Under the pieces are notes generated by a model. It was not told where the DNA came from. It made no database searches and saw only the letters and a program-made list of their open reading frames with translations. The position numbers and the translations under genes are program-made. This document shows, piece after piece, positions 1-28,114 of a DNA stretch of 64,000 nt (position 1 is the first letter of the stretch; each line of letters begins with the position of its first letter). The DNA comes from an uncultured Williamsia sp. (GTDB lineage: Bacteria; Actinomycetota; Actinomycetes; Mycobacteriales; Mycobacteriaceae): NCBI RefSeq assembly GCF_947494875.1, contig NZ_CANLWM010000005.1, positions 1 through 64,000 on the forward strand. Direction: 5' to 3'.

Positions 1-68
1 AGCTAAGCCCTCCAGCGCCGATGGTACTGCACCCTAACCAGTGTGGGAGAGTAGGACACCGCCGAACA
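1..68 (+). rRNA. rrf: 5S ribosomal RNA, 3' part
   Basis: The first 68 bases match the 3' half of an actinobacterial 5S rRNA, from the conserved 'agctaagccctccagcgccg' stretch to the terminal 'gtaggacaccgccgaaca'. The 5' part lies outside the window. A strong terminator follows at once, so this is the end of an rRNA operon. In M. tuberculosis the single rrn operon also lies a few genes upstream of nucS, which fits the gene order that follows here. Confidence 0.93.
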
Positions 69-76
69 CAACATCC

Positions 77-116
77 CACGATGCCCCCGCCTCACGGCGG
101 GGGCATCGTGCTTTTT
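77..116 (+). terminator. Intrinsic terminator of the rRNA operon
   Basis: A perfect 15-bp stem (77-91 with 96-110) closes on a TCAC loop and is followed by five T residues at 112-116. It is the only hairpin found in this window with a clear T-tract. Its place right after 5S rRNA makes it the rrn terminator. Confidence 0.93.
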
Positions 117-130
117 CGTCTCTTTTCCTC

Positions 131-706
131 TCATTCAGCGTGGGACAGCAACACGGCCCAGCCGGCAATGGATTGCGCGTCCACGATGCGCCCGCCGACG
201 ATCGCCGAGACGACTTCGTCGCGGGTCCACCAGGTCCATGTCATGTCGCTCTCCGTGCTGTCTCGATGATGCTCTCCATCGGCGAGATCCTCGGCGAGGA
301 CGATCGTGGTCTGTTGGGCGGTGAATCCCGGAGCCACGTCGAGGACCGCCAACAGTCGCAGCGTCGACGCGGCGAGTCCTGTCTCCTCCCGCAGCTCACG
401 TCGCGCCGCACCGACTGGGTCGGTGTCCACCGCGTCCGCGGTGCCGGCGGGGAACTCCCAGCGCCGTGCGCCGACGGGGTAGCGGTATTGCTCCACGACA
501 CAGAACTCCTCGACGTCGTCGACCACGCGCCGCGCGATGACCACGACGCCCGGCGCGCGGTGCACGACACCGTAGATGCCCCTGCTCCCGTCGCTGCGGC
601 GCACCACGTCCTCGGTGACCGACATCCAGTCGTTGCGATAGGTCTCGCGGCCGTCGATCCGCTGGACGTCGGCGGGGCGGGTGTCGCGGCGGGGCGTCGG
701 TGTCAC
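131..706 (-). CDS. NUDIX hydrolase (ADP-ribose pyrophosphatase-like)
   Basis: A 191-residue protein with a NUDIX fold; such enzymes split nucleoside diphosphates linked to another group, here probably ADP-ribose or a similar sugar nucleotide. The N-terminal stretch around '[15 protein letters not shown]' (residues 23-37) resembles ADP-ribose pyrophosphatases. The NUDIX box lies at about 88-111 and keeps 'RELREETGL', but has one extra residue after the leading Gly, and the first Glu of the consensus is replaced by Thr/Asp, so metal binding may differ. The GTG start at 706 is preferred because it retains the N-terminal strand; an ATG at residue 28 would cut into it. The gene is divergent from nucS, and the two promoters appear to overlap. 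Confidence 0.82.
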
Positions 707-723
707 GCCACTAGGGTGACACC
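699..723. promoter_or_regulatory. Overlapping divergent promoters of nudix and nucS with inverted repeat
   Basis: An inverted repeat with 8-bp arms, GGTGTCAC (699-706) and GTGACACC (716-723), spans the whole space between the two genes. On the plus strand TAGGGT (712-717) sits 7 bases before the nucS GTG at 725. On the minus strand CACCCT (713-718) sits 6 bases before the GTG at 706. The two candidate -10 boxes therefore share almost the same bases, and RNA polymerase probably cannot occupy both at once. Confidence 0.55.
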
Positions 724-724
724 C

Positions 725-1408
725 GTGCGCTTGGTGATCGCGGAATGTCAGGTCGACTACGTGGGACGGCTGACCGCCCACCTCCCCCGGGCGAAGCGTC
801 TCCTGCTCATCAAGAACGACGGGTCGGTGAGCGTCCACGCCGACGACCGCGCGTACAAGCCCCTCAACTGGATGAGCCCGCCCTGCCGGCTCGTCGAGCA
901 TCCCGCGCCCGAGGACAGCGATGCGTCGGCTCTGTGGGTCGTCACCAACAAGGCGGGTGAGGAGCTGCGCATCCTGCTCGGCGAGGTCGAGCACGACTCC
1001 GCGCACGAGCTCGGTGTGGATCCCGGTCTGGTCAAGGACGGGGTCGAGGCGCACCTGCAGGAGCTGTTGGCCGAACACGTCGAGACCTTCGGTCCCGGCT
1101 ACACCCTGGTGCGGCGGGAGTACATGACGGCGATCGGGCCCGTCGACCTGTTGTGTCGGGACCCGGCCGGCGGCACCGTCGCCGTCGAGGTGAAGCGGCG
1201 CGGGGAGATCGACGGTGTCGAACAGCTCACCCGGTACCTCGAGCTGCTGAACAGGGACGCGACCCTCGCCCCGGTGCACGGAGTGTTCGCCGCCCAGATC
1301 ATCAAGCCGCAGGCGCGGACGCTGGCCGAGGACCGCGGTATCCGCTGTGTCACCGTCGACTACGACGCCCTGCGGGGCATCGAGAGCACCGAGTTCCGGT
1401 TGTTCTGA
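725..1408 (+). CDS. nucS: Mismatch-specific endonuclease NucS
   Basis: A 227-residue orthologue of NucS/EndoMS, the enzyme that provides mismatch repair in actinobacteria lacking MutS/MutL. It cleaves both strands at mismatched bases and is directed by the sliding clamp. The N-terminal DNA-binding half contains the diagnostic '[11 protein letters not shown]' and '[17 protein letters not shown]'. The C-terminal RecB-like nuclease half has 'GPVDLLCRD' followed by '[20 protein letters not shown]', which supplies the D-E-K catalytic residues. The GTG at 725 is chosen because a TAGGGT box lies 7 bases upstream and mycobacterial NucS begins in the same way; a GTG at 716 would add three residues. 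A small zinc-motif protein gene follows after 2 bases. M. tuberculosis Rv1321 is the orthologue. Confidence 0.96.
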
Positions 1409-1410
1409 CC

Positions 1411-1698
1411 ATGCCTCGCCGCAACCGTCGTCCGCCCGCGACCGCACGCGGGGTGTCCGGCGGGATGGCGCGGACCGAGCGTGGTCCCGACGGGCTCGAG
1501 CGTGATCACCACGTCCGCACCATCTCCGGCGACCGGGCGACGAAGCCCTACCGGTGCCCGGGCTGCAATCAGGTCATCGCTCCCGGCACGGCACACGTCG
1601 TCGCGTGGCCGGTCGACGACCGTGACGGCGACGACCGTCGCCACTGGCACACGGGATGCTGGCGCGGACGGGGCGCGCGGACCGGGTACCGCCGCTGA
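1411..1698 (+). CDS. Small Cys/His-motif protein linked to nucS
   Basis: A 95-residue basic protein whose ATG lies 2 bases after the nucS stop, so the two are almost surely co-transcribed. The N-terminus is rich in Arg and Pro. The middle holds 'YRCPGCNQVIAPGTAHVVAW' and the C-terminus 'HWHTGCW', giving a CxxC plus HxHxxC arrangement that could bind zinc. Homologues beside nucS in Streptomyces and mycobacteria are often labelled 'ATP/GTP-binding protein', but no P-loop is visible here, so that label is not supported. A role with NucS or with nucleic acid is a guess from position and charge. Confidence 0.78.
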   Translation: MPRRNRRPPATARGVSGGMARTERGPDGLERDHHVRTISGDRATKPYRCPGCNQVIAPGTAHVVAWPVDDRDGDDRRHWHTGCWRGRGARTGYRR

Positions 1699-1704
1699 GA
1701 CGGT

Positions 1705-2721
1705 TCAGGACCGGGTGATCTGGGCGTCCTCCGACAACCCCTTGTTCAGCAGATCGGTGCTGTCGAGTTCGACGAGGTCCTCCTCGCCGTCGAGCTCCGC
1801 CAGCAGGCGCGGCAGCTCGTCGAGCTGCGATCGCACCTCCGAGAGCTGCGCGAGCATCCGACTGCGGAGCTGACGTGCACTCTGGACGAGCTCGGCCGAG
1901 CGGGTGACCCGCTCGGTGGCCAGCGAGTGCGACCGTGCCAGCAGACGCTCGGACTCGGCCCGGGCGTTGTCGACGAGTTCGCGAGCGGTGGCCTCCGAGG
2001 ACAACTCGAGCTCCTTGACCGCCTGGACGGCCTTGTCGCGGCGGGCGGCCATCGTGACGTCGAAGTCCTCCTGCGTCCGCTCACGATCGCGGTGCGCCTG
2101 GGCGTCGAGCTCCGCGGCCTCGGCCCGGGCGTTCGCGACGATCCGCTCTGCCTCCTGCTTCGCCGCGGCCATCGCCGCCGCGTGCTCGGACTCCATCGCC
2201 GCGGTGCGGTCGGCGACGAACCGCTCGTTCTCGTCGTGCGCCGTGCGGGCGGCCTCCTCCAACCGGGCCGCCTCGCCGCGCAGTCGCTGGGACTCGACCT
2301 TGGCCGCGGCGAGCTGCGAGTTCGCCTCCTCGGACGCGTCCTCCCGCAACTGTGCGGCCTCCTGTCGCGCGACCGACAGGATCTCCGCGGACTCGGACTG
2401 GGCGTTCGCGCGCATCTCCGACGCCTCGTCGGCCGCGAGCTGGAGCATCCGCGAGATGCGATCGCTCATGCCCTGCGCGGTGGTCACCGGCACGGACAAG
2501 GAGTCCACCTCGCGACGGAGCTGTTCGATCTCGTCGCGTGCGTCGTCGAGGTGCTCGGCGAGCTCGCGGGCATTGGCGGCCGCGGCGTCGCGGTCCGCGG
2601 CGATGACCCTGAGCTCCGCGTCGGACCGGGCGAAGAACTCCGCGACCTGGTCACGGTCGTAGCCGCGCATGGCGATGGCGAACGGGAGTCCGTGCGATGA
2701 GCCCTGATCGTGTTCCGGCAT
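1705..2721 (-). CDS. DivIVA-like coiled-coil protein (FilP/Scy-like position)
   Basis: A 338-residue protein. Residues 11-35 ('LPFAIAMRGYDRDQVAEFF') match the N-terminal DivIVA/Wag31 membrane-curvature motif. Almost everything after residue 35 is a long, highly charged alpha-helical coiled coil rich in Ala, Glu and Arg, broken by a short stretch near 70-80. It is probably a polar or filament-forming cytoskeletal scaffold. In Streptomyces the coiled-coil proteins FilP and Scy are encoded directly next to methylmalonyl-CoA epimerase and a thiolase, the same neighbours as here, which suggests positional orthology. The ATG at 2721 is preceded by TAAGCT with a 7-base gap, so the transcript is probably leaderless. 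The epimerase gene lies 54 bp upstream in the same direction. Confidence 0.85.
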   Translation of the reverse strand: MPEHDQGSSHGLPFAIAMRGYDRDQVAEFFARSDAELRVIAADRDAAAANARELAEHLDDARDEIEQLRREVDSLSVPVTTAQGMSDRISRMLQLAADEASEMRANAQSESAEILSVARQEAAQLREDASEEANSQLAAAKVESQRLRGEAARLEEAARTAHDENERFVADRTAAMESEHAAAMAAAKQEAERIVANARAEAAELDAQAHRDRERTQEDFDVTMAARRDKAVQAVKELELSSEATARELVDNARAESERLLARSHSLATERVTRSAELVQSARQLRSRMLAQLSEVRSQLDELPRLLAELDGEEDLVELDSTDLLNKGLSEDAQITRS

Positions 2722-2728
2722 GCCGCGT

Positions 2729-2734
2729 AGCTTA
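2729..2734 (-). promoter_or_regulatory. -10 box for the DivIVA-like gene (leaderless)
   Basis: On the minus strand TAAGCT is followed by 7 bases and then the ATG at 2721. This fits the actinobacterial TANNNT box and puts the transcription start at or next to the start codon. Confidence 0.55.
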
Positions 2735-2775
2735 CTTGCCGCCGTCGGGGCCGCAGCAGGTCCGCCGCGCAGGGA

Positions 2776-3261
2776 TCAGTGCACGTCGGCGGGCGGTTCC
2801 ACCAGCTCCAACAGCACCCCGCCCGCGTCCTTCGGGTGCACGAAATTGATGCGGGAGCCGGCGGTACCGCGCCGGGGCTCGGGGTAGAGGACGCGGAGGC
2901 CCTTCTCGGTGAGCCGACGGACGACCTCGTCGACGTCGGTGACGCGGACCGCGAGCTGCTGCAGTCCGGGACCGTTGCGGTCGAGGAACTTCGCGATCGT
3001 CGACGACTCGTCGAGGGGGGCCAGCAGCTGGATCTGGGCCGCGCGGGTCGCGCCGGCGTCGGCGGGTCCGACCATCGCCTCGATGACACCCTGCTCGGTG
3101 TTCGTCTCCTGGTGCAGGCAGACGAAACCGAGAGTGTCGGAGTACCAGGCCTTCGCGGCGTCGAGGTCGGCGACGGCGATCCCGACATGGTCGATCGCGG
3201 TCACGAGTTCCCCGAGGTCGGCCGTCGCGACAGAGGTGGGAGTGGATGCACTGGTCGACAT
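2776..3261 (-). CDS. mce: Methylmalonyl-CoA epimerase
   Basis: A 161-residue vicinal-oxygen-chelate (glyoxalase fold) protein. It interconverts (S)- and (R)-methylmalonyl-CoA on the route from propionyl-CoA to succinyl-CoA. The core starts at residue 22 with 'AIDHVGIAVADLDAA', and the metal ligands are expected at that His, at 'LQQLAVRVTDVD' in the second half, and at the Glu of 'GGVLLELVEPP'. The first 20 residues are a Ser/Thr/Ala-rich tail. The gene is divergent from a thiolase gene, an arrangement shared with M. tuberculosis (Rv1322A/Rv1323). A TACCGT box 6 bases before the ATG indicates a leaderless transcript, with a palindrome just upstream of it. Confidence 0.92.
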   Translation of the reverse strand: MSTSASTPTSVATADLGELVTAIDHVGIAVADLDAAKAWYSDTLGFVCLHQETNTEQGVIEAMVGPADAGATRAAQIQLLAPLDESSTIAKFLDRNGPGLQQLAVRVTDVDEVVRRLTEKGLRVLYPEPRRGTAGSRINFVHPKDAGGVLLELVEPPADVH

Positions 3262-3267
3262 GCTGTG

Positions 3268-3298
3268 ACGGTACCCTTGGCACCGAGCGATCGCTCGG
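3268..3298 (-). promoter_or_regulatory. mce promoter with 16-bp palindromic operator
   Basis: The minus-strand TACCGT (3268-3273) sits 6 bases before the epimerase ATG. Ten bases further upstream, CCGAGCGATCGCTCGG (3283-3298) is a perfect 16-bp palindrome of the size and symmetry typical for TetR-family operators. It covers the -35 region of mce and lies about 70 bp before the divergent thiolase start, so one regulator could control both genes. Confidence 0.6.
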
Positions 3299-3367
3299 GT
3301 CGGGCCGTACCCGCCGCCCGATCACCGGTCGCGCAGCATCCCCGAACCCAGAACGAAGAGGTCCTCA

Positions 3368-4555
3368 ATGTCGTCGGTCATCGTCGCCGGAGCGCGCACC
3401 CCCGTCGGTCGCCTGATGGGCGCCTTCAAGGACACCAGCGCCGTCGACCTCGGCGCGACCGCCATCCGCGGCGCCCTGGACAAGGCGGGCGTCCCGGCGT
3501 CGGCCGTCGAGTACGTGATCATGGGCCAGGTCCTCACCGCCGGTGTGGGTCAGATGCCCGCGCGACAGACAGCCATCAAGGCCGGGATCGGCTGGGACGT
3601 CGCCGCACTCACGATCAACAAGATGTGCCTCTCGGGCATCGACGCCATCGCCCTCGCCGACCAGCTCATCCGCGCCGGCGAGTTCGACTGCATCGTCGCC
3701 GGTGGCCAGGAGTCGATGTCGCAGGCGCCGCACCTGCTGCCGGGCAGCCGGGGCGGGTTCAAGTACGGATCCACCGAACTGGTCGACCACATGGCCTTCG
3801 ACGGCCTCTTCGACCCGTTCACCGACCAGCCGATGGGCGCGCTCACCGAGCAGACCAACGACGTCATCACCTTCACCCGTGAGCAGCAGGACGAGTTCGC
3901 CGCACAGTCCCATCAGCGCGCGGCCGCGGCCTGGAAGAACGGCGTCTTCGCCGACGAGGTGGTCCCCGTGAGCATCCCGCAGCGCAAGGGCGATCCCGTC
4001 GAGGTGACCGAGGACGAGGGCATCCGTGCGGACACGACCGCGGACACCCTCGCCCGTCTGCGTCCGGCATTCCGCAAGGACGGCACCATCACCGCGGGCA
4101 ACTCGTCGCAGATCTCCGACGGTGCCGCCGCCGTGGTCGTGATGAGCAAGGAGAAGGCGACCGAGCTCGGGTTGACCTGGCTCGCAGAGATCGGCGCGCA
4201 CGGCGTCGTCGCCGGCCCCGACTCGTCGCTGCAGGCGCAGCCGGCCAACGCCATCGAGAAGGCGTGCGCGCGTGCGGGCATCACCCCGGCGGACCTCGAT
4301 CTCGTGGAGATCAACGAGGCGTTCGCCGCTGTCGGGCTGGCCTCCACCCAGCAGCTCGGCATCGACCCGGAGAAGGTCAACGTCAACGGCGGCGCGATCG
4401 CCATCGGGCACCCCATCGGCATCTCGGGCGCCCGCATCGCACTGCACCTGGCACTGGAGCTGCAGCGCCGTGGTGGCGGCACCGGCGCGGCCGCGCTGTG
4501 CGGTGCCGGTGGTCAGGGTGACGCGCTGATCCTGACCGTTCCCTCCCGGTCCTGA
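3368..4555 (+). CDS. fadA4: Acetyl-CoA acetyltransferase (thiolase, FadA4-like)
   Basis: A 395-residue thiolase that joins two acetyl-CoA into acetoacetyl-CoA or splits 3-ketoacyl-CoA. Catalytic residues are visible: Cys87 in 'INKMCLSG', the 'NEAFA' motif, His in '[16 protein letters not shown]', and Cys378 in '[10 protein letters not shown]'. Length and motifs fit the degradative/biosynthetic acetyl-CoA acetyltransferase family, with FadA4 (Rv1323) as the positional match. The ATG at 3368 has a GAGG ribosome-binding sequence about 8 bases upstream, so unlike many neighbours this gene has a 5' leader. It is divergent from the epimerase, which links it to propionate and odd-chain or branched acyl-CoA use. 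Confidence 0.94.
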
Positions 4556-4565
4556 CGACCGCCGG

Positions 4566-4600
4566 CGTGACCTCTACTACCTGTGGTAGTAGAGGTCACG
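4566..4600. repeat. Perfect 15-bp inverted repeat (operator or terminator)
   Basis: The arms CGTGACCTCTACTAC (4566-4580) and GTAGTAGAGGTCACG (4586-4600) are perfect complements around a 5-base CTGTG spacer. The repeat lies 10 bp after the thiolase stop and 22 bp before the DUF3817 start. No T-tract follows. It could end thiolase transcription, but its closeness to the next promoter and its exact symmetry also suit an operator. Confidence 0.7.
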
Positions 4601-4622
4601 CGCGTCGGGCACAATGGTGTCC

Positions 4623-4979
4623 ATGAGCTCTGTCCTCAACCCCCGCACCGTCGCCCGCGTCTTCCGTGTCGTGGCGATCCTCGAAGCCATCTCCTGGTTG
4701 GCCCTGCTGATCGCGATGTACTTCAAGTGGGTGGAGGGACACACCGAGGCCGTCGCCGTGCCGGGCATGGTGCACGGGATCATCTTCGTCGTCTTCGTGG
4801 TCGTCTCGATCGTGACCGCGCGAGTGCTCCGGTGGACGATGCCGACCACCCTGTGGGCGTTGTTCTCCAGCATCCCGCCCTTCGGCACGCTCGTCTTCGA
4901 GATCTGGGCGCAGCGGACCGGGCGCCTCGAGCGCGACGGCGACCGCGGCGCCGTTGCCAAGCGCGCCGCATCCGTGTGA
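4623..4979 (+). CDS. DUF3817 membrane protein (first of two)
   Basis: A 118-residue protein with three predicted membrane helices: about residues 15-33 ('AILEAISWLALLIAMY'), 48-68 ('MVHGIIFVVFVVVSIV') and 75-95. The 'HG...RW...PF..FE' pattern is that of DUF3817, an actinobacterial integral membrane family of unknown function. A second copy lies at 21262-21618 in this window. The ATG at 4623 has CACAAT 7 bases upstream, a possible -10 box; an ATG at 4614 would add three residues. Two further genes follow closely (gap of 11 bp, then a 4-bp overlap), forming an operon with a thiamine-binding-like protein and an MFS carrier. A long palindrome precedes it. Confidence 0.82.
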   Translation: MSSVLNPRTVARVFRVVAILEAISWLALLIAMYFKWVEGHTEAVAVPGMVHGIIFVVFVVVSIVTARVLRWTMPTTLWALFSSIPPFGTLVFEIWAQRTGRLERDGDRGAVAKRAASV

Positions 4980-4990
4980 GGAGTGGTCCG

Positions 4991-5296
4991 GTGATCGTCG
5001 CCTTCAGCCTCGCCCCGTCCGGTGGGACCGCCGTCGCCGACGACGGCAGCATGAGCGCCGCCGTGGCCGAGGCGGTCCGCGTCGTCCGTGAGTCCGGTGT
5101 CACCCACCAGACGACGTCGATGTTCACCTACCTCGAGGGGGAGTGGGACGAGGTGATGGCCGTGGTCAAGGACGCCACCGACGCCGTCCTCGCCCTCGCG
5201 CCCCGCGTCTCGCTGGTCCTCAAGGCCGACATCCGTCCGGGTCACGACGACCAGATGACGGCGAAGGTCCGCAGGGTCGACGAGCACCTCGCGTGA
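4991..5296 (+). CDS. MTH1187-family thiamine-binding-like protein
   Basis: A 101-residue single-domain protein of the MTH1187/YqgV (DUF77) family, small ferredoxin-like-fold proteins that form tetramers; some bind thiamine-like compounds. Visible family features are 'VAFSLAPSG' at the start, 'TTSMFTYLEGEWDEVM' in the middle and 'VLKADIRPGHDDQM' near the end. The GTG at 4991 has a GGAG ribosome-binding site just after the previous stop. The stop overlaps the start of the MFS gene by 4 bp, so translation is probably coupled. Association with a transporter hints at binding a small solute, but the ligand cannot be read from sequence. Confidence 0.82.
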   Translation: MIVAFSLAPSGGTAVADDGSMSAAVAEAVRVVRESGVTHQTTSMFTYLEGEWDEVMAVVKDATDAVLALAPRVSLVLKADIRPGHDDQMTAKVRRVDEHLA

Positions 5297-6558
5297 CGCC
5301 GCCGGCCGCGGGCCGGGCGGGCCATCGCGCGACCGCGGCGTCACCCGTCTCGTGGAGGGCGCGACGCCGGGCCGTCTCGACCGTCTTCTTCGTCAACGGG
5401 TTGCTCGCCGCGATGTGGGTCGCGCACATCCCCGTCATCTCCGACGCCACCGGCGTCGACCACGGGACCCTCGGGGTCCTGCTGTTGTTGCTCGGCGGGT
5501 GCGCCTTCCTCGGGATGCAGGTGTGCGGGCCGATCATCGACCGACGGGGGTCGCGCGGGGTGATCCTGGTCGCGGCGACGACCCTGGCGGTCGCGGCGCT
5601 GCTGCCCGTGCTGGCGACCACGGCGTGGCAACTCGGTCTCGCCCTCGCTCTGTTCGGTGTCGCGAACGGCGCCATCGACGTCGGCATGAACGCTCACGCC
5701 GTGGTGGTGGAGCAGGACCGGGGGCGGCCGGTGATGTCGTCGTTCCACGGCTTCTTCTCGCTCGGTGGCCTGGTCGGGTCGGGGATCGTGGCGGGCGGGT
5801 TGTTCCTCGACGTGCCCGTCGTCCTGACCGTCGCGGTGGTGGTCGTCGCCTCGGTGGCCGGTGTCGTCGTCATCCGCCCGTCGTTGACACGGGGACCGCA
5901 CCGCTCCGACGACGTCACGCAGCAGCACGACGAGGGGTCCCGGTTCCCGATCGGGATCCGGGGACGGATCGTGCTGATGGCCGCGGTGGCGTTCGCCCTG
6001 ATGCTCGCCGAGGGCACCGCGTACGACTGGAGCGCACTGCACACGACGGAACGTTTCGGGGTCGGCGACGGCGTCGGGGCACTGGCGTTCGGGGCGTTCA
6101 GCGCGACGATGCTCGTCGGCCGATTCCTCGCCGACCGCGTCACCGCCCGTCTCGGACCGGTCGCGGTGGTGCGCGGCGGTGCGGCGACGGCTGCGGTGGG
6201 CATGGTCGTCGTGATCTCGGCGCCGACACCGGTCGTCGGGATCCTCGGGTGGGCCGTCTTCGGGATCGGGGTCGCCGGCGGCGTGCCGCAGCTGTTCACC
6301 GCGGCGGGCAACGTGACGACACAGCCCAGCGGCCGGGTCATCTCGACGGTGGTGGGGTGCGGCTATCTCGGGATGTTGGCCGGTCCGGCCGTCGTCGGGT
6401 TCATCAGCCGTGCGACCACCCTGGGCACCGCGCTGTGGGTCGCGGTGGCGGCGATGGCATTCGGCTGTGCGACCGCGGGGGTGGTCCGGGCGGCCGGAGC
6501 CCGGGGCGCCCTGCGGCGTGGTGAACCCTCGGGCGTCCGTGCCAGACTGGACGTGTGA
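5293..6558 (+). CDS. MFS transporter
   Basis: A 421-residue major facilitator with about 12 hydrophobic segments, starting after a 29-residue basic N-terminus. The first helix contains 'FFVNGLLAAMWVAHIPVIS', and loop 2-3 has a 'GPIIDRRGSRGV' motif typical of MFS. A central soluble loop (about 200-215) separates the two halves. It resembles YbjJ-like carriers of unknown substrate. The GTG start overlaps the previous stop (GTGA), and the stop overlaps the next start in the same way, so genes 4623-7538 are one transcription unit. Confidence 0.87.
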   Translation: MTPPAAGRAGHRATAASPVSWRARRRAVSTVFFVNGLLAAMWVAHIPVISDATGVDHGTLGVLLLLLGGCAFLGMQVCGPIIDRRGSRGVILVAATTLAVAALLPVLATTAWQLGLALALFGVANGAIDVGMNAHAVVVEQDRGRPVMSSFHGFFSLGGLVGSGIVAGGLFLDVPVVLTVAVVVVASVAGVVVIRPSLTRGPHRSDDVTQQHDEGSRFPIGIRGRIVLMAAVAFALMLAEGTAYDWSALHTTERFGVGDGVGALAFGAFSATMLVGRFLADRVTARLGPVAVVRGGAATAAVGMVVVISAPTPVVGILGWAVFGIGVAGGVPQLFTAAGNVTTQPSGRVISTVVGCGYLGMLAGPAVVGFISRATTLGTALWVAVAAMAFGCATAGVVRAAGARGALRRGEPSGVRARLDV

Positions 6559-22115: not shown

Positions 22116-22197
22116 GCGCGAGTGGCGGAACTGGCAGACGCGCTGGATTTAGGTTCCAGTGGGGCAACCCGTGGGAGTTCGAGTCTCCTCTCGCGCA
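22116..22197 (+). tRNA. tRNA-Leu (anticodon TAG)
   Basis: The acceptor arms GCGCGAG and CTCGCGC pair fully. The anticodon stem CTGGA/TCCAG encloses loop TTTAGGT, with TAG at the anticodon position. A long variable arm ('GTGGGGCAACCCGT' region) and GTTCGAGTC T-loop are present. CCA is not encoded. It is a class II tRNA-Leu reading CUA/CUN codons. Confidence 0.95.
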
Positions 22198-22209
22198 CCC
22201 GTTCCGGAC

Positions 22210-22259: not shown

Positions 22260-23156
22260 ATGAGCAGCGAGCCACGCCGGATCGACATCGCCCTGCCCGA
22301 GCTGCGGCTGGCCGCGCTCGCCTGGGGATCGGACGACGGTCCGCTCGCGGTCCTGGTCCATGGGTACCCCGACTCCGCGTGGTCGTGGCGGCACCTCGGA
22401 CCCGCGCTCGCCGAGCAGGGGTTCCGCGTCGTCGCACCGTTCACCCGCGGCTACGCACCGAGCGACATCCCCGCCGACGGCGACTACCACGTCGGCGCGC
22501 TCATGCACGACATCGTCGGGGTGCACCGCGAGCTCGGGGGCGACGACCGGGCGGTGCTCGTGGGGCACGACTGGGGCGCCGTCACCGCGAACGGGATCGC
22601 CGCCTGGCCGCGGTCACCGTTCCGGCGGGTGGTGTCGATGGCGGTGCCGCCCGTGCCCGCGATGACCCGGTCGGTCGCGTCGCCGGCGCAGACGGTGCGC
22701 ATGCTCGCGCGTCAGGCCCGGATGAGTTGGTACATGGCCTACAACCAGGTGCCGCGGCTGGCGGAGGCGTCTCTCGACAGGCTCATCCCCCGGCTCTGGC
22801 GCGACTGGTCACCCGGGCACGACCCGAGTGGTGATCTCCCGCATGTCTTCGACGCACTGCCCGACCGTGACCACCGGCGCGCCGCACTGGGGTACTACCG
22901 CGCGCAGGTGCGTCCGCGTCGGCCGCAGGCGCGCTATCGCGAGCTGCAGGACTTCTGGCTGAAGGGTCCGATCGTCCCGATGCTCTACCTGCACGGCGCC
23001 GACGACGGTTGCATGCAGGTCGGCTACACCCGGGGGGTGCGTGACGTGCTGCCTGAGGGCAGCGCCGTCGAGATCGTCGCGGGCGCGGGACACTTCCTGC
23101 AGGTGGAACGACCCGAGGAGGTCAACCGACTCGTCCTCGACTTCGTCGGACGCTGA
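22260..23156 (+). CDS. Alpha/beta hydrolase (epoxide hydrolase-like)
   Basis: A 298-residue cytosolic alpha/beta hydrolase. The oxyanion motif is 'HGYPDSAWSW' and the nucleophile elbow is 'VGHDWGA', where Asp replaces Ser; this is typical of epoxide hydrolases and haloalkane dehalogenases. The C-terminal His is in 'GAGHFLQVERPEEV'. The family includes soluble epoxide hydrolases, so an epoxide or related ester is the likeliest substrate. A leaderless start is indicated by TAGACT 6 bases upstream. The gene stands alone between tRNA-Leu and a convergent ABM-domain gene. Confidence 0.88.
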   Translation: MSSEPRRIDIALPELRLAALAWGSDDGPLAVLVHGYPDSAWSWRHLGPALAEQGFRVVAPFTRGYAPSDIPADGDYHVGALMHDIVGVHRELGGDDRAVLVGHDWGAVTANGIAAWPRSPFRRVVSMAVPPVPAMTRSVASPAQTVRMLARQARMSWYMAYNQVPRLAEASLDRLIPRLWRDWSPGHDPSGDLPHVFDALPDRDHRRAALGYYRAQVRPRRPQARYRELQDFWLKGPIVPMLYLHGADDGCMQVGYTRGVRDVLPEGSAVEIVAGAGHFLQVERPEEVNRLVLDFVGR

Positions 23157-23201
23157 CGGCGGACGCCCCTCGGGCCGTCTCGTGCCCCTGCCCGGGGTGA
23201 C

Positions 23202-23522
23202 TCAGTCGACCTGCATCTCGCCCATCGGGCCCCAGCCGTCGGCGCCGATCTTCTCGCTGATGATCTTCGGCGTGTGGGCGAGGTACTGCGGCAGGTCGGC
23301 GACCGCGGCCGTGAAGTGATCGCTGTTGACGTGCGCCTCGGCGCCGTCGTCGGCGAAACCCTCGGTGAGCACGTACTCGTTCGGGTCGTCGAGGCTGCGT
23401 GCCCAGTCGAAGAACATGTTGCCCGGCTCGGCGCGGGTGCCCGCGGTGAAATCGGCGACGATCGACGGCCAGTCGTCGGCGTGCTCGGGCTTCACCGGGA
23501 ACTTGACGACGATGAAGATCAC
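23202..23522 (-). CDS. Antibiotic-biosynthesis-monooxygenase (ABM) domain protein
   Basis: A 106-residue single-domain dimeric alpha/beta-barrel protein. 'VIFIVVKFPVKPEHADDW' starts the ABM fold, and 'EPGNMFFDWARSLDDPNEYVLTEGFADDGA' and 'HVNSDHFTAAVADLPQYL' complete it. Members act as cofactor-free monooxygenases, heme degraders or simple ligand binders. The GTG at 23522 has AGGAG 7 bases upstream. It lies 73 bp downstream of the alcohol dehydrogenase in the same direction, so it may be the last gene of the amidohydrolase-DUF59-ADH operon, in the place where a GroEL-like gene lies in mim loci. The substrate is unknown. Confidence 0.82.
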   Translation of the reverse strand: MIFIVVKFPVKPEHADDWPSIVADFTAGTRAEPGNMFFDWARSLDDPNEYVLTEGFADDGAEAHVNSDHFTAAVADLPQYLAHTPKIISEKIGADGWGPMGEMQVD

Positions 23523-23595
23523 GGATGCTCTCCTGGGGTGGTGGTGGACGATTCCCTGCCACGGTACGTGGCGGGGACGATGGTGACCGGAATCC

Positions 23596-24630
23596 TCACG
23601 GGGTGAGGATGGCTCGACCACGGACGTTGCCGGCGTCGAGATCGTCGATGGCACTCTGGAAGTCGTCGAGGGAGTACTTCGCGGTGTGCAGGGTCACCGC
23701 CCCCCGCGCGGCCAGCTGCATCAGGTCGCACAGGTCGTTGTACGACCCGACGAGGTTGCCCACGATGTTCTTCTCGGCCGAGATGAGATCGATCGACGGG
23801 ACGTCGATGTTCTCGCCGTATCCGACGATGTGGTAGTCGCCGGCGCGACGCGTCATCGCCAGTCCTTCTGCGGTGGTGCCGTTCTCGCCCACGAAATCGA
23901 TCACGACCTCCGCCCCGTGGCCTCCGGTCAACTCCAGCACCTGCTCGACCTGGGTGCCGTCGGCGACGATTCCGCGGTCGGCGCCGATGGACTCGGCGAG
24001 CTTGAGGGCCTGCTCGTTACGGTCGACCACGACCAGCTCGGCGGGGGTCAGGGCCTTGAGGACCTGGATCCCGATGTGCCCCAGTCCTCCCGCCCCGATC
24101 ACGACGCAGCGGTCGCGCGGCGTCAGTCTCCTCGCCGCCTTGGCCGCTGCGTGGTACGCGGTGAGGCCCGCGTCGGCGAGGGCCGCGATGTCCGCGGGTT
24201 CGAGCGAGTCGTCGATCCTCACCACGCTGCGCGCGGAGGTCTTGATGTAGTCCGCGTATCCGCCATTCGTGTCGATACCGGGGAACGCGTTGACCTCACA
24301 GTGCACATCGTCGCCGGACCGGCAGGCGCGACACAGGCCGCAGGTGATCAGCGGGTGCAGGATCACCTTGTCGCCCTCGGCCACATGGGTGACCGCGGAG
24401 CCGACCGCATGGACCCAGCCGGCGTTCTCGTGACCGATCGTGTACGGCAGTGTGACGCCGGACTTCTCGGCCCACTGACCCTCCAGGATGTGGAGGTCGG
24501 TGCGGCACACACCGGCACCGCCGATCTTCACGACGACGTCGAACGGGCCGGTGGGTTCGGGCACCGGGACCTCGGTCATCTCGAGTTTCTGGTGGTAGCC
24601 GACCACCTGGACGGCGCGCATCGTGGACAT
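23596..24630 (-). CDS. Zinc-dependent alcohol dehydrogenase (prm/mim-cluster type)
   Basis: A 344-residue medium-chain dehydrogenase. Catalytic zinc ligands are in 'GAGVCRTDLH' and 'IGHENAGWV'. The structural zinc site is 'CGLCRACRSGDDVHC', and the NAD-binding loop is 'VIGAGGLGHIG'. An acidic 'VVVDRNEQAL' after the third strand points to NAD+ rather than NADP+. It resembles the alcohol dehydrogenases found with propane/acetone monooxygenase genes (prm/mim), which oxidise 2-propanol or related alcohols. The ATG at 24630 is used (an ATG three codons later is possible). It is the third gene in the operon after amidohydrolase and a DUF59 protein, 25 bp after the latter. Confidence 0.92.
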   Translation of the reverse strand: MSTMRAVQVVGYHQKLEMTEVPVPEPTGPFDVVVKIGGAGVCRTDLHILEGQWAEKSGVTLPYTIGHENAGWVHAVGSAVTHVAEGDKVILHPLITCGLCRACRSGDDVHCEVNAFPGIDTNGGYADYIKTSARSVVRIDDSLEPADIAALADAGLTAYHAAAKAARRLTPRDRCVVIGAGGLGHIGIQVLKALTPAELVVVDRNEQALKLAESIGADRGIVADGTQVEQVLELTGGHGAEVVIDFVGENGTTAEGLAMTRRAGDYHIVGYGENIDVPSIDLISAEKNIVGNLVGSYNDLCDLMQLAARGAVTLHTAKYSLDDFQSAIDDLDAGNVRGRAILTP

Positions 24631-24655
24631 GGTCTCTCCGGTTCTGTGGGGTGGG

Positions 24656-25414
24656 TCAGGACGCCGCGCGCACCGTGAGGGCGTCGAGCGGGACGAAGGT
24701 CGGGTCGGCGGGCTCGTCGGCGTACCGGGTACCGAGAAGGCCCCTGCACCAGTGGGCATTTCCCTCGATGGAGATGCGGGTGGAACGCGCCCGACGCAGG
24801 GCATGGGTCACCGCGTCGGGCGCGTAGCCCCTACCGTCGGCGTCGACGAGGACCAGGTCGTCCGGTTCGGTGCCGAGACCGATGGCGTGCCGGCGGCTGC
24901 GCAGTGAGCGCGTGGCGTCGTCGTCGGGGAGATCGCCCAGGCGAACCGCGCCGAGGTGTTCCTCGGTGCGCTCGGGATCGGTGCGGAGCAGCCCGGTGAG
25001 GCAGCGTTCCATGGCCGCGGTGTGCGCCTTGCGCGCGAACGTGGCACGCAACTCGTCGAGATCGGAATCCGCCTCGTGCCGGAATGTCCCGCGGTATCCG
25101 GCGTCGGCGGCCAACCCGGTGTTGATGATCTCCGAGTCGTGGTGGTCGTCCAGTTCGACGACCACCACCGACGTCCACGGCAACGCGGTGAGGGCGTCCT
25201 TGGCGTCGGACGCCATGAGGTAGGCGAAGTTCGGCGCGCAGAACGAGGTGGGCAGGCGCAGATGGACCTCCACCGCGCCGTCGGCGCCGGCGTCGATCGA
25301 CCGCACGAAGCCGAGGTCGGTGATCGGTTCGTCGAGTTCGGGGTCGATCACCGCGTCGAGGGCTCGGCGGATCTCGGCGTGCCGGGTGGTGTCGAGGGTG
25401 GGAGCCGACATCAT
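24656..25414 (-). CDS. DUF59 (metal-sulfur assembly) domain protein of mim/prm type
   Basis: A 252-residue protein. Residues 11-100 are a MIP18/DUF59 domain with 'VIDPELDEPITDLGFVRSID' and a Cys in 'TSFCAPNFAYLM'; such domains help assemble iron-sulfur or other metal centres. The remaining 150 residues are a charged C-terminal part specific to this subfamily. In M. smegmatis the same type of protein is encoded between the amidohydrolase and alcohol dehydrogenase of the mim binuclear-iron monooxygenase locus. The ATG overlaps the amidohydrolase stop as ATGA. A role in maturing a metalloenzyme is likely, yet the expected monooxygenase is not in this window. Confidence 0.85.
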   Translation of the reverse strand: MMSAPTLDTTRHAEIRRALDAVIDPELDEPITDLGFVRSIDAGADGAVEVHLRLPTSFCAPNFAYLMASDAKDALTALPWTSVVVVELDDHHDSEIINTGLAADAGYRGTFRHEADSDLDELRATFARKAHTAAMERCLTGLLRTDPERTEEHLGAVRLGDLPDDDATRSLRSRRHAIGLGTEPDDLVLVDADGRGYAPDAVTHALRRARSTRISIEGNAHWCRGLLGTRYADEPADPTFVPLDALTVRAAS

Positions 25415-26448
25415 GCACCGACCATCTCGTCGGCGCCCCGGGGGCCGGTGGCGGTCTCGTCGGCGTCGGGCAGCTGCAGTTCGGCGGGCACCGGGATGTC
25501 GTAGAGCTTGGCCGCGTTGAGCCCGAGGACCTTCTTCTTCTGGTCGGTGGTGATCTTCGGGTACTCGCTGAGCTCGTCGGGGATCTGGAAGTCGACGAAG
25601 CCCTCCACCAACCACTTCGGGGTCCACAGGGCGTAGTCGGAGGAGAAGAAGATGCGGTCCTCGCCCAGCCAGTAGAGGAGCTCGCCCATGATCTGCGCGA
25701 AGTACTTGGGGCGGGTGTGCATGAAGGGGATGGCCACGGCGAGGCCCGCGTAGACGTTGGGCTCCTGGGTGGCGATCCAGCAGAAGTCCTCGAGGCGGGG
25801 GAGTCCGCAGTGCTCGACGACGAAGTTCAGATCGGTGAAGTCCGACGCCACGTGGTCGACATCGGCGACGTCGAACGCGTCGCGGTCGAGCGGTCGGATG
25901 GTGGGGCCCTTGTGGACGTGGATGTTGCGGATGCCGAGCTCGCGGCACGCCTCGAAGTACCGGTAGGCCCATGGGTCGTCGAGCTTGTAGCCGCGCGACT
26001 CCCCGTGCCATTCGGCCGTGTAGAGCTTGACGCCCTTCAGGTTGTACTTCTCGGCGTCGAGCCGCAGCTGGTCCAGTCCCTGCTCGCCGTTGCGCGGGTC
26101 GAAATGGTGGTTGTAGGTCAGTTTGTCCGGGTGCGCGGCCGCCAGCTCCGACGCCTCGTCGGTCTGGCCGAACCCCTTGTAGTAGAACTCGCCGAGATGG
26201 GCGGGCTGGAAGATCGCATGGTCGACGTGGCCGACCTCGAACAGGTCGTGCATCAGTCGGTCGCCGCCCTGGTAGAGGTACTCCTCGTAGCTCCACAGCT
26301 CCGACTCCGGCGACAGGTTGCGGTGGTAGTCGTAGAAGCAGTCGATGAACTGCTTGCCGTGGATGTTGCGCTGGTTCTCCGCGCGCGCATCCCAGAGCGC
26401 GATGTGTGCGTCGACGATGAAGTAGTCGGCGTCGGGTGTGTGATACAT
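25411..26448 (-). CDS. Amidohydrolase-2 family protein of mim/prm type
   Basis: A 345-residue TIM-barrel metal-dependent hydrolase. The N-terminal motif reads 'VDAHIALWDARAENQ', so the usual HxH pair is reduced to one His. Further barrel motifs are 'NHHFDPRNGEQG', 'GIRNIHVHKGPT', 'VEHCGLPRLEDF' and 'FSSDYALWTP'. This type accompanies binuclear-iron propane/acetone monooxygenases and is thought to help in their function; its reaction is not established. The ATG at 26448 has AGAGAGG upstream; an earlier ATG at 26481 would lack a ribosome-binding site. It is the first gene of its operon and is divergent from an AcoR/MimR-like regulator. In mim loci the monooxygenase genes would stand before it. 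Confidence 0.88.
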   Translation of the reverse strand: MYHTPDADYFIVDAHIALWDARAENQRNIHGKQFIDCFYDYHRNLSPESELWSYEEYLYQGGDRLMHDLFEVGHVDHAIFQPAHLGEFYYKGFGQTDEASELAAAHPDKLTYNHHFDPRNGEQGLDQLRLDAEKYNLKGVKLYTAEWHGESRGYKLDDPWAYRYFEACRELGIRNIHVHKGPTIRPLDRDAFDVADVDHVASDFTDLNFVVEHCGLPRLEDFCWIATQEPNVYAGLAVAIPFMHTRPKYFAQIMGELLYWLGEDRIFFSSDYALWTPKWLVEGFVDFQIPDELSEYPKITTDQKKKVLGLNAAKLYDIPVPAELQLPDADETATGPRGADEMVGA

Positions 26449-26532
26449 GTCGACCTCTCTGACGCATGTGATCAGTGCCACACGTCTGGTGCGACCGTAG
26501 GCAGCGGTCCGCGGGTGATCGAGGGGGCGACC

Positions 26533-26547
26533 GTCTCACTTTGAGAC
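26533..26547. promoter_or_regulatory. Palindromic operator between amidohydrolase and regulator
   Basis: GTCTCA-CTT-TGAGAC is a perfect inverted repeat with 6-bp arms and a 3-bp centre. It lies 85 bp upstream of the amidohydrolase start and 95 bp upstream of the regulator start. Its position fits an upstream activator site for the Fis-type regulator encoded next to it. Confidence 0.55.
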
Positions 26548-26614
26548 ACCCCCTGAGCTGCCGGACCGTCGACCCACGCTCTTGTGGCACCCGTGCGGCA
26601 TTTCGGAGGCCGAG

Positions 26615-26620
26615 TAACCT
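26615..26620 (+). promoter_or_regulatory. -10 box for the AcoR/MimR-like regulator
   Basis: TAACCT lies 21 bases before the ATG at 26642, with a GGAAGG ribosome-binding sequence between. Confidence 0.45.
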
Positions 26621-26641
26621 GGGTCACATTCGGAAGGGGTG

Positions 26642-28114
26642 ATGGATGTGGCTCAGCCGCCGGCATCTCGGCGCGATCTCACGCGGGTCGGTACGTCGAC
26701 CGGCGAGCGCCGACTGCTCGCGTCGTGGCGGCGGTCGGCCGAGTACGGGGTCGCCGACGACGCGGTCACCCCTGCTTTCACCGGAACCCACGACCTGGAC
26801 TCGCTGTTCTGGTCGTGCGGCACGGAGGTGCTCACCGACCTCTCTCACACGCTGTCCGGCGAGCCCGTCGGACTGATGCTGACCGATCCCGACGGTGTCG
26901 TCCTGCACCGCGCGAGTGGGGACTCGTCGTTGCTCGGCGCACTCGACGACGTGCGTCTCGCGCCGGGGTTCGCCTACTCCGAGCGCGAGGTCGGCACGAA
27001 CGGCCTGGGATTGGCCCTCGCCGACCGGACGCCGACCCTGGTGCGCGCCGAGGAGCACTACGCGCAGAACCTCAGCAGCTTCACGTGCGCTGCGGTCCCG
27101 GTGATCGACCCGGCCACCGGGCGGGTCGAGGGCTGCGTCAACCTGACGACCTGGTCACGATCGTCGCCGGATCTGCTTCTCGCACTGGCCCGGTCGGCGG
27201 CCGGGACCACCGCCGCCCTGATGGGAGCGCGATCGGCGGGCCGGCGTGCGCGACCCGTCCCGCGCGGGACCGTCATGCGCATCGACCTGCCGCGCCTCGA
27301 GCCCGGGGCGGGCACACTGCGCGGGTTGTCGCAGGCGTGGCGCGACGTCGTGGACCGTGCCGAGCGCGGACTGCGCGGCGGGCAGGTCGTGGCCGCAGTG
27401 GGGGAACGGGGCTCCGGACGTGCCACCGCGCTCGCCCAGGCCGCCCGTCGTGTGCGTCCGCGCGACCGCATCCTCTCCGCCGCGCCGCCCACCTCCGGCG
27501 ACGTGGTGACGTGGCTCGACCTGTGGCTGCCGGAGGTCGGCAAGGACCACACCGCCGTGATCGTCCGTGACGTCGACCGACTACCCGACTGGGTCGCGGT
27601 ACGTCTCGCCGACCTGCTCGGCCGACGACCCGCCGGCGACGTACCGGTGGTGGTGACCGCGGAACACCTCGAGGACGTCCCGATGGTCCTCCGGTCGGCG
27701 ATCGACGCGGTCGTCGACATGCCGCCGTTGCGTGACCGACCCGATGACATCGCGCCGCTCGCGGCGCATCTCGCGGAGACTGCGCGGGGACGGGCCGTCG
27801 ACATCGCTCCTGCCGCGGAACGTGCGTTGGGGGCCTACGACTGGCCGGGCAACGTCGGCGAACTCGCCGACGTCGTCCGATCGGCAGCACTGCGGGGCGA
27901 CCGGATCGACGTGGGATCCCTGCCGTCCGACGTCCTCGCCGGTGGCGGTCGACGTCTGTCGCGGATCGAGGCATTCGAGCGCGGCGAGATCGTGCGGGTC
28001 CTCGCGTCCGGGCCGCCCAGCATGAACGACGCCGCGCGGTCGCTGGGGATGAGCCGGGCGACGTTGTACCGCAAGATCACCCACTACGGCATCACCACGA
28101 CGGTGGGCGCCTGA
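26642..28114 (+). CDS. AcoR/MimR-like Fis-family transcriptional regulator without GAFTGA
   Basis: A 490-residue regulator with an N-terminal GAF-type sensor (about 50-200; 'GTNGLGLAL...HYAQNLSSFTCAAVPV'), a degenerate AAA+ region and a C-terminal Fis helix-turn-helix ('SMNDAARSLGMSRATLYRKI'). The Walker A equivalent is 'GERGSGRAT' (254-262) with Arg in place of the essential Lys. No GAFTGA loop for sigma-54 contact is present. 'LRDRPDDIAPLAAHLAE' and 'YDWPGNVGELADV' mark the rest of the AAA+ fold. This fits AcoR/MimR regulators of Mycobacteriales, which activate dioxygenase or monooxygenase operons without sigma-54. The divergent amidohydrolase operon is the likely target. An ATG at 26642 is chosen; a GTG overlaps at 26639. 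Confidence 0.88.
   Translation: MDVAQPPASRRDLTRVGTSTGERRLLASWRRSAEYGVADDAVTPAFTGTHDLDSLFWSCGTEVLTDLSHTLSGEPVGLMLTDPDGVVLHRASGDSSLLGALDDVRLAPGFAYSEREVGTNGLGLALADRTPTLVRAEEHYAQNLSSFTCAAVPVIDPATGRVEGCVNLTTWSRSSPDLLLALARSAAGTTAALMGARSAGRRARPVPRGTVMRIDLPRLEPGAGTLRGLSQAWRDVVDRAERGLRGGQVVAAVGERGSGRATALAQAARRVRPRDRILSAAPPTSGDVVTWLDLWLPEVGKDHTAVIVRDVDRLPDWVAVRLADLLGRRPAGDVPVVVTAEHLEDVPMVLRSAIDAVVDMPPLRDRPDDIAPLAAHLAETARGRAVDIAPAAERALGAYDWPGNVGELADVVRSAALRGDRIDVGSLPSDVLAGGGRRLSRIEAFERGEIVRVLASGPPSMNDAARSLGMSRATLYRKITHYGITTTVGA

Follow-up and report, generated by a model that had tools for sequence, protein, structure and literature searches.

A 64,000-nucleotide stretch of DNA from an uncultured Williamsia sp. 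(assembly GCF_947494875.1, contig NZ_CANLWM010000005.1, positions 1 to 64,000; hereafter the window) carries genes for an amidohydrolase (AMI), a DUF59 protein, a zinc-dependent alcohol dehydrogenase (ADH) and a protein with an antibiotic biosynthesis monooxygenase (ABM) domain, next to a divergent regulator gene. Such genes form the accessory half of propane/acetone monooxygenase (prm/mim) loci, and we found that this accessory half is a real, well-conserved operon in its own right. With a probability of roughly 0.6, AMI-DUF59-ADH, often together with ABM, constitutes a self-contained, regulator-controlled catabolic operon for small alcohols or ketones that is also used by mim clusters. The operon in the window is probably not the leftover of a monooxygenase locus. 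This reading rests on the conserved gene set, the divergent regulator, the conserved operator and the presence of the set in genomes in which no soluble di-iron monooxygenase (SDIMO) was found, as well as on the near-constant presence of AMI in genomes with a mim-type enzyme, whether linked or unlinked.

The identities and order of the genes given in a preliminary description of this DNA (divergent AcoR/MimR-like regulator, amidohydrolase, DUF59 protein, zinc-dependent ADH) were borne out by the open reading frames (ORFs) and by Pfam (Table 1). Transcription runs in the order AMI-DUF59-ADH-ABM on the minus strand, with a 4 bp overlap between the AMI and DUF59 genes; start codons of ADH and ABM were picked by comparison with relatives. 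The nearest named relatives by AMI identity were Williamsia herbipolensis (97%) and W. serinedens (95%). The proposed kinship to the accessory half of prm/mim held as well: gene order and operator palindrome are the same, and identities to the mim-linked set of locus L136 amount to 76% for ADH, 72% for AMI, 58% for DUF59 and 44% for ABM, with 43% and 38% over two pieces of the regulator.

A species-genome collection yielded at least 573 relatives, and neighbourhoods were counted in the best 80 loci, a list biased toward the window's own clade. Gene calls around these loci followed a codon-position rule, not annotation, and three loci are present twice (L043/L123, L044/L124, L046/L125), hence the distinct counts given below. 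A DUF59 gene was present in all 80 loci, and ADH in 78 (L086 and L089 end before ADH); regulator and ABM homologues occurred in 77 and 43 loci, respectively. Mim monooxygenase genes of any kind were limited to four loci (L052, L062, L078, and L103). No further gene family recurred broadly beside the set: the next clusters covered at most 12 loci, except for a cluster of 24 loci overlapping DUF59 on the opposite strand. Stand-alone loci of many genera shared one common layout with the operator before AMI, and the window has this layout too: the regulator is divergent, the palindrome lies some 100 bp upstream of AMI, AMI-DUF59-ADH are codirectional, and no mim gene adjoins. Four Mycobacteriales genomes (G039, G047, G054, and G060) have both mimABCD-groEL and AMI-DUF59-ADH-ABM, separated by about 93 kb to 1.3 Mb and each accompanied by a regulator. 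The suggestion that these proteins have a function of their own is supported, the set being a unit in SDIMO-free genomes.

Some loci differed in their surroundings. A gene for a DUF1097 membrane protein, perhaps the transport protein of the operon, was located 3′ of ADH in 14 of the 80 loci (DUF1097 loci: L071, L076, L079, L083, L084, L096, L097, L099, L106, L111, L114, L117, L119, L121, and L182). Locus L065 is an intermediate between stand-alone and mim loci: its positions 1-5600 contain pieces of the regulator, the operator and AMI-DUF59-ADH, followed by a 65% mim-like GroEL gene, whereas the 10 kb of sequence covered include no gene of the mim monooxygenase. Acidimicrobiia-like loci (L175-L178, L181, L184, L188, and L189) carry the trio with common neighbour genes, each in at most 8 of 12 loci. 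In L184, mimABCD is added beside the trio, possibly offering a view of an insertion or a loss.

The absence of the four monooxygenase genes, as originally described, was confirmed. In the own genome, which comprises 4.77 Mb on 17 contigs and has a completeness rating of 100%, the search for monooxygenase homologues suggested in the preliminary description was run with the SDIMO hydroxylase profile PF02332 and returned no match, while 15 of 61 genomes matched as a positive control (14 above cut-off). The same profile matched none of the eight genomes of the genus, own genome included, and AMI was present in six of these eight. Neither PF02406 nor the copper monooxygenase profile PF02461 had a match in the own genome, and no control genome matched either of them. 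The genome contains two GroEL copies, which share 50% and 49% identity with the mim GroEL of L136 and both lie outside the window. Hence, no mimABCD and no close mimG were found in this genome. The ABM gene had been thought to stand in the position of the GroEL-like gene, which proved incorrect: ABM lies 3′ of the GroEL gene in L136, L137, and L138, and in M. smegmatis MSMEG_1979 (antibiotic biosynthesis monooxygenase) comes after groL MSMEG_1978 (locus data in PMC5445863); the same gene is listed in the locus comparison of PMC4428276. Since ABM is itself a member of classical mim loci, the genes missing here are mimABCD and groEL only.

The preliminary description had offered a lost or relocated monooxygenase as one explanation. 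In this scenario, Williamsia or a recent ancestor possessed a whole mim operon at this site and lost mimABCD and groEL. We compared 57 AMI rows in a quick IQ-TREE phylogeny, with the SH-like approximate likelihood ratio test (SH-aLRT) as sole support and residue 17 kept in. A clade of 36 rows (support 97) comprised 31 stand-alone Actinomycetes copies, two mim-linked mycobacterial copies (L052 and L062) and three uncertain ones (L065, L078, and L103). Its sister group consisted of four mim-linked copies (98), and both fell within a clade with support 100, outside of which the Acidimicrobiia copies and some further mim-linked rows branched. The five rows nearest to the window were all stand-alone. 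The presence of L052 and L062 in the same 11-row clade as the window, together with the operator and gene order shared with mim loci, speaks for such a loss, but the predominance of stand-alone copies among the nearest rows and in the 36-row clade, the uniform layout across many genera, the intact state of all genes of the window operon and the lack of SDIMO in the genome and its seven genus-mates make it very unlikely. Loss of mimABCD from the window locus was accordingly rejected as the leading explanation, on the grounds of the tree and of the 0/8 SDIMO count in the genus. The mim-linked label required six to seven changes on the tree, at least four of them forced by starred branches; therefore, the module joined or left mim loci repeatedly.

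To relate AMI to the monooxygenase at the level of genomes, co-occurrence was counted in two sets, 61 genomes and 396 genomes of the phylum, with two shared carriers counted once. Enzymes were classed as mim-type when MimA was at least 73% identical to that of L136, and AMI was counted at 54% or more identity; relatedness among the genomes means that the counts are not independent of one another. In the smaller set, all 11 genomes with a mim-type MimA had AMI. The larger set contained 17 mim-type genomes (16 by MimA, G364 by MimB and MimC), 14 of them with AMI, which gives 25 of 28 for both sets. AMI and mim were unlinked in five genomes (G039, G047, G054, G060, and G134, the last with about 1.3 Mb between them). 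Conversely, 7 of 18 AMI carriers in the 61 genomes and 24 of 40 in the 396 genomes (3 of the 40 by fragments only) had no SDIMO above cut-off. A mim-type enzyme was absent from 31 of 56 AMI carriers, two of which (G145 and G177) have another SDIMO type. Among SDIMO carriers that were not mim-type or not typed, AMI was found in none of three and in two of nine; the nine include G110 and G349, which were not fetched.

These counts also bear on the view that AMI and DUF59, with ADH as a passenger, assist in assembling or shielding the metal centre of an oxygenase whose gene lies elsewhere, the client in Williamsia being another metalloenzyme. The Pfam family of DUF59 proteins is one of iron-sulfur assembly factors, and the almost regular company of AMI with mim-type monooxygenases, even when unlinked, would fit a maturation role. 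Such a role is nonetheless unlikely given that more than half of the AMI carriers have no mim-type monooxygenase, that the neighbours of the stand-alone set in the 80 loci include no other recurrent oxygenase family, and that the set has a regulator and an operator of its own.

Of 94 upstream stretches, 87 (84 of the 91 distinct ones) have a palindrome, TGTCTCA-N3-TGAGACA (at least 11 of 14 letters), whose start lies 90-146 bp before AMI. In the seven stretches lacking it (L052, L062, and L136-L140), AMI lies in or beside a mim cluster. In a weak control with one single-letter shuffle per stretch, 1 of 94 reached 11 letters. The palindrome is also located in front of mimA in each of the nine loci L132-L140 and in L052 and L078, and L139 has a further copy ahead of its rearranged ADH-AMI-DUF59 genes. 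That there are conserved palindromes close to prmA had already been noted in PMC4428276. In a search for a wider regulon, the only exact copy of the core GTCTCA-N3-TGAGAC in the own genome was the one in the window. Three sites have one mismatch, compared with one for the reversed control pattern; by a simple gene caller, two are between ORFs and one is inside an ORF. One such copy (L195 1099-3633; G000:C2 near 613293) lies between two ORFs that, judged by eye from their first residues, resemble a Rieske-type oxygenase and a cytochrome P450. The window regulator (P0006) differs from AcoR/DhaR-type sigma-54 activators in that their defining AAA+ domain, Sigma54_activat (PF00158), had no match in it. 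Scans of the L136 and L052 mim regulators gave no match to this domain either, while the counterpart from Peribacillus retains it (E 7.3e-67).

The AMI of the window reads HIA at residues 15-17, so the usual HxH at the end of strand 1 is not present. Across 115 rows, residue 17 was Ala in 91 (86 distinct), His in 23 and Gly in one; three of the 23 His17 rows are distant paralogues (L186, L187, and L190) without the first His and D271. Residue 17 alone differed as a fixed position between the two groups (at least 97% in one group and at least 90% in the other), and K141, H179 and H213 were invariant. Judged from the aligned residues, the AMI clade of the window has lost one metal-ligand histidine (HxH to HxA). 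The change tracks lineage, not linkage: L052 and L062 are mim-linked yet have Ala17, and stand-alone Acidimicrobiia have His17. The paralogue represented by L186, L187 and L190 (32-37% identity) was seen in many genomes of the phylum, with no adjoining DUF59 homologue.

AMI and DUF59 also form a tight pair on plasmids and in other phyla. AMI matches were obtained in 18 plasmid records, and DUF59 adjoined in 17 of them, the remaining record being a 32% match in Nonomuraea. Neighbourhoods within 9 kb were inspected in the 16 records that were fetched. In ten, mim genes adjoin the pair: Paracoccus, Caballeronia (two), Rhodococcus (two), Ponticoccus, Bradyrhizobium, Aminobacter, Gemmobacter, and Rhizobium CB3060. 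No mim gene was present within this distance in five: (i) Peribacillus, with a sigma-54 regulator, AMI, DUF59, and DJ-1/PfpI; (ii) Halomicrococcus and (iii) Halorarius, two haloarchaea with AMI-DUF59 and a divergent ADH; (iv) Thermomicrobium, with IclR, DUF59, AMI, and ADH; and (v) Rhizobium N324, with AMI, DUF59, and gloA. Beyond Actinomycetes, the pair was found without a neighbouring SDIMO in Acidimicrobiia, Peribacillus, Thermomicrobium, Rhizobium, and haloarchaea.

A possible mechanism for the self-standing operon would start with the regulator, which may sense a small alcohol or ketone (2-propanol, acetone, or acetol) and switch the operon on. ADH would oxidise the alcohol, converting 2-propanol to acetone or acetol to methylglyoxal, and AMI, a decarboxylase/ACMSD-like barrel, might catalyse the neighbouring reaction, with the ketone, the hydroxyketone or the 2-oxoaldehyde as its substrate. 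The DUF59 protein probably supplies or guards the metal of AMI. Since mim/prm clusters would likewise depend on this reaction once propane or acetone has been hydroxylated, their repeated possession of the module would be accounted for.

The AMI model is a barrel of moderate confidence (mean pLDDT 79), whose Foldseek rows included decarboxylases, LigJ, ACMSD, and uronate isomerase at 10-19% identity; a PDB sequence search gave one weak match (3irs). For the N-terminal domain of the DUF59 protein, 3lno and 2cu6 were the best Foldseek rows (E about 1e-3, probability 1.00), but the helical C-terminal part, in which H221 and C223 are invariant, had no convincing fold match, and the PDB sequence search returned no match for this protein. 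Mean column identity over 32 rows each was 86% for AMI and 57% for DUF59. Since the AMI fold matches include 5-carboxyvanillate and dihydroxybenzoate decarboxylases besides LigJ and ACMSD, and the ADH family is broad in substrate, the operon might instead serve mainly other alcohols (longer secondary or aromatic), with AMI decarboxylating an aromatic or dicarboxylic intermediate. We regard this as improbable in view of the low identities of these rows and the quality of the model, the repeated association with propane/acetone monooxygenase loci, and the neighbouring genes, among which no aromatic pathway genes recur.

A C3 compound is a tentative candidate for the substrate. Pointers toward it come from the biochemistry of mim, the secondary alcohol dehydrogenase of Gordonia TY-5 (as cited in PMC6849523) and neighbour genes. 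According to PMC7176365, mim biochemistry leads from acetone to acetol, the mim-cluster Adh1 and an amidohydrolase-like protein are abundant on 2-hydroxyisobutyric acid (2-HIBA) and acetone, and Adh1 is proposed to be an acetol dehydrogenase. A gene for a GldA-type glycerol dehydrogenase is adjacent in L113, L115, L177, and L180, within 1.5 kb in L166, and 4-9 kb away in L106, L183, and L189. Glyoxalase I genes occur near L181, L188, and L189 and on the Rhizobium, Ponticoccus, and Bradyrhizobium plasmids, and the DJ-1/PfpI gene of the Peribacillus locus is a further hint of this kind.

Several observations weigh against our interpretation. The GldA cases are in part close relatives (L113/L115; L177/L180), and only three of the best 80 loci have GldA within the locus. 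Glyoxalase and DJ-1 queries matched none of these 80 loci, and no gene of the GldA, glyoxalase or DJ-1 type stands beside the window operon. On the Ponticoccus plasmid, AMI-DUF59 lies beside GMC and glyoxalase genes of its own, which would cover the acetol route proposed for Methylacidiphilum (PMC8630023), so that AMI would not be needed for the acetol step there. No homologue of the window ADH was present within 9 kb of the Peribacillus and Rhizobium N324 pairs; ADH is therefore a frequent but not an obligatory partner of AMI-DUF59. These two plasmid loci and the missing glyoxalase and DJ-1 matches lower the odds of a C3 substrate and of the metalloenzyme proposed below. Furthermore, three mim-type genomes (G221, G327, and G409, all fragmented assemblies) were without AMI, and at 12 or more of 14 letters the palindrome was not seen in the Acidimicrobiia loci L175-L181, L183, L184, L188, and L189.

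A more far-reaching and rather doubtful proposal is that AMI-DUF59 represents a new two-protein metalloenzyme of small ketone or oxoaldehyde metabolism, in bacteria and haloarchaea, with the Actinomycetes holding an HxA variant. Acetol or methylglyoxal would be example substrates. If so, the "accessory ORFs" of propane monooxygenase clusters would be the missing step from acetone to central metabolism.

Table 1. Coordinates of the operon, its regulator and the adjoining hydrolase gene in the window.
Feature	Position	Strand	Remarks
alpha/beta hydrolase	22260-23156	+	outside the conserved set
ABM-domain protein, last gene of the set	23202-23522	-	Pfam ABM 1.4e-17; homologue in 43/80 loci
ADH, Zn-dependent medium-chain alcohol dehydrogenase	23596-24630	-	ADH_N 2e-27, ADH_zinc_N 2.8e-21
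DUF59 protein, N-terminal FeS_assembly_P (DUF59) and helical C-terminal domain	24656-25414	-	E 2.2e-15
AMI, amidohydrolase PF04909 (Amidohydro_2), metal motif HIA not HxH	25411-26448	-	E 1.9e-49
operator palindrome between the divergent genes	26532-26548, core 26533-26547		conserved in 84/91 distinct upstream stretches
AcoR/MimR-like regulator with GAF, AAA_lid_14 and HTH_8 (Fis-type)	26639-28114	+	Pfam; homologue in 77/80 loci

The preliminary description had also considered the ABM protein and the alpha/beta hydrolase as parts of the pathway. ABM does belong to the set, but the hydrolase was rejected as part of it: homologues of 68-90% identity were present in only three of the 80 loci (L043, L044, and L046, all Williamsia), and 11 loci had homologues of only 27-35%. 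A FadD-like ligase was rejected likewise, with 80-96% homologues in three of the 80 loci, all Williamsia. GldA gave four matches in the own genome, none above cut-off. A tRNA-Leu gene (22116-22199) is located just before the hydrolase gene.

Among known systems, the closest is the prm/mim locus of SDIMO group V (M. smegmatis MSMEG_1970-1979, Gordonia TY-5, Rhodococcus BCP1), which shares the AMI-DUF59-ADH order, ABM, an AcoR/Fis-type regulator and the same palindrome before the first gene. The window differs by lacking mimABCD and a close mimG, by a regulator of 491 aa compared with 580 and 625 aa in the two mim regulators scanned, and by HxA in AMI, whereas prm/mim AMI is mostly HxH. The amidohydrolase and DUF59 genes of such clusters appear without function in the locus maps available from the literature used. 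No description of a stand-alone operon was found in the open-access literature, the only precedent found being the split prm of Mycobacterium sp. AT1 (Johnston et al. 2017, PMC6849523), in which the first three accessory genes lie away from mimABCD-GroEL on the chromosome. The stand-alone AT1 locus (L054) has the same regulator-AMI-DUF59-ADH-ABM unit as the window, but the AT1 genome still has the monooxygenase, and the passages used stop short of inferring a self-standing operon. In the mim cluster of Actinomycetospora chiangmaiensis, the source of the protein abundance data cited above (PMC7176365), the set is together with the monooxygenase, and the amidohydrolase is given no function in the portions used. 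Because these genes sit, with ADH, under a regulator and operator of their own in hosts in which no SDIMO was found, the role of AMI and DUF59 becomes a simple genetic question, free of the monooxygenase. It also follows that finding an AMI-DUF59-ADH set in a genome does not indicate that propane or acetone is hydroxylated. Finally, AMI shares the Pfam family and the barrel fold with Amidohydro_2 enzymes such as LigW, the dihydroxybenzoate decarboxylases, LigJ, and ACMSD, but it is distant from them in the Foldseek comparison (10-19% identity), and in the clade of the window Ala replaces the second metal-motif His. This type-specific residue, A17 versus H17, provides a handle for biochemists.

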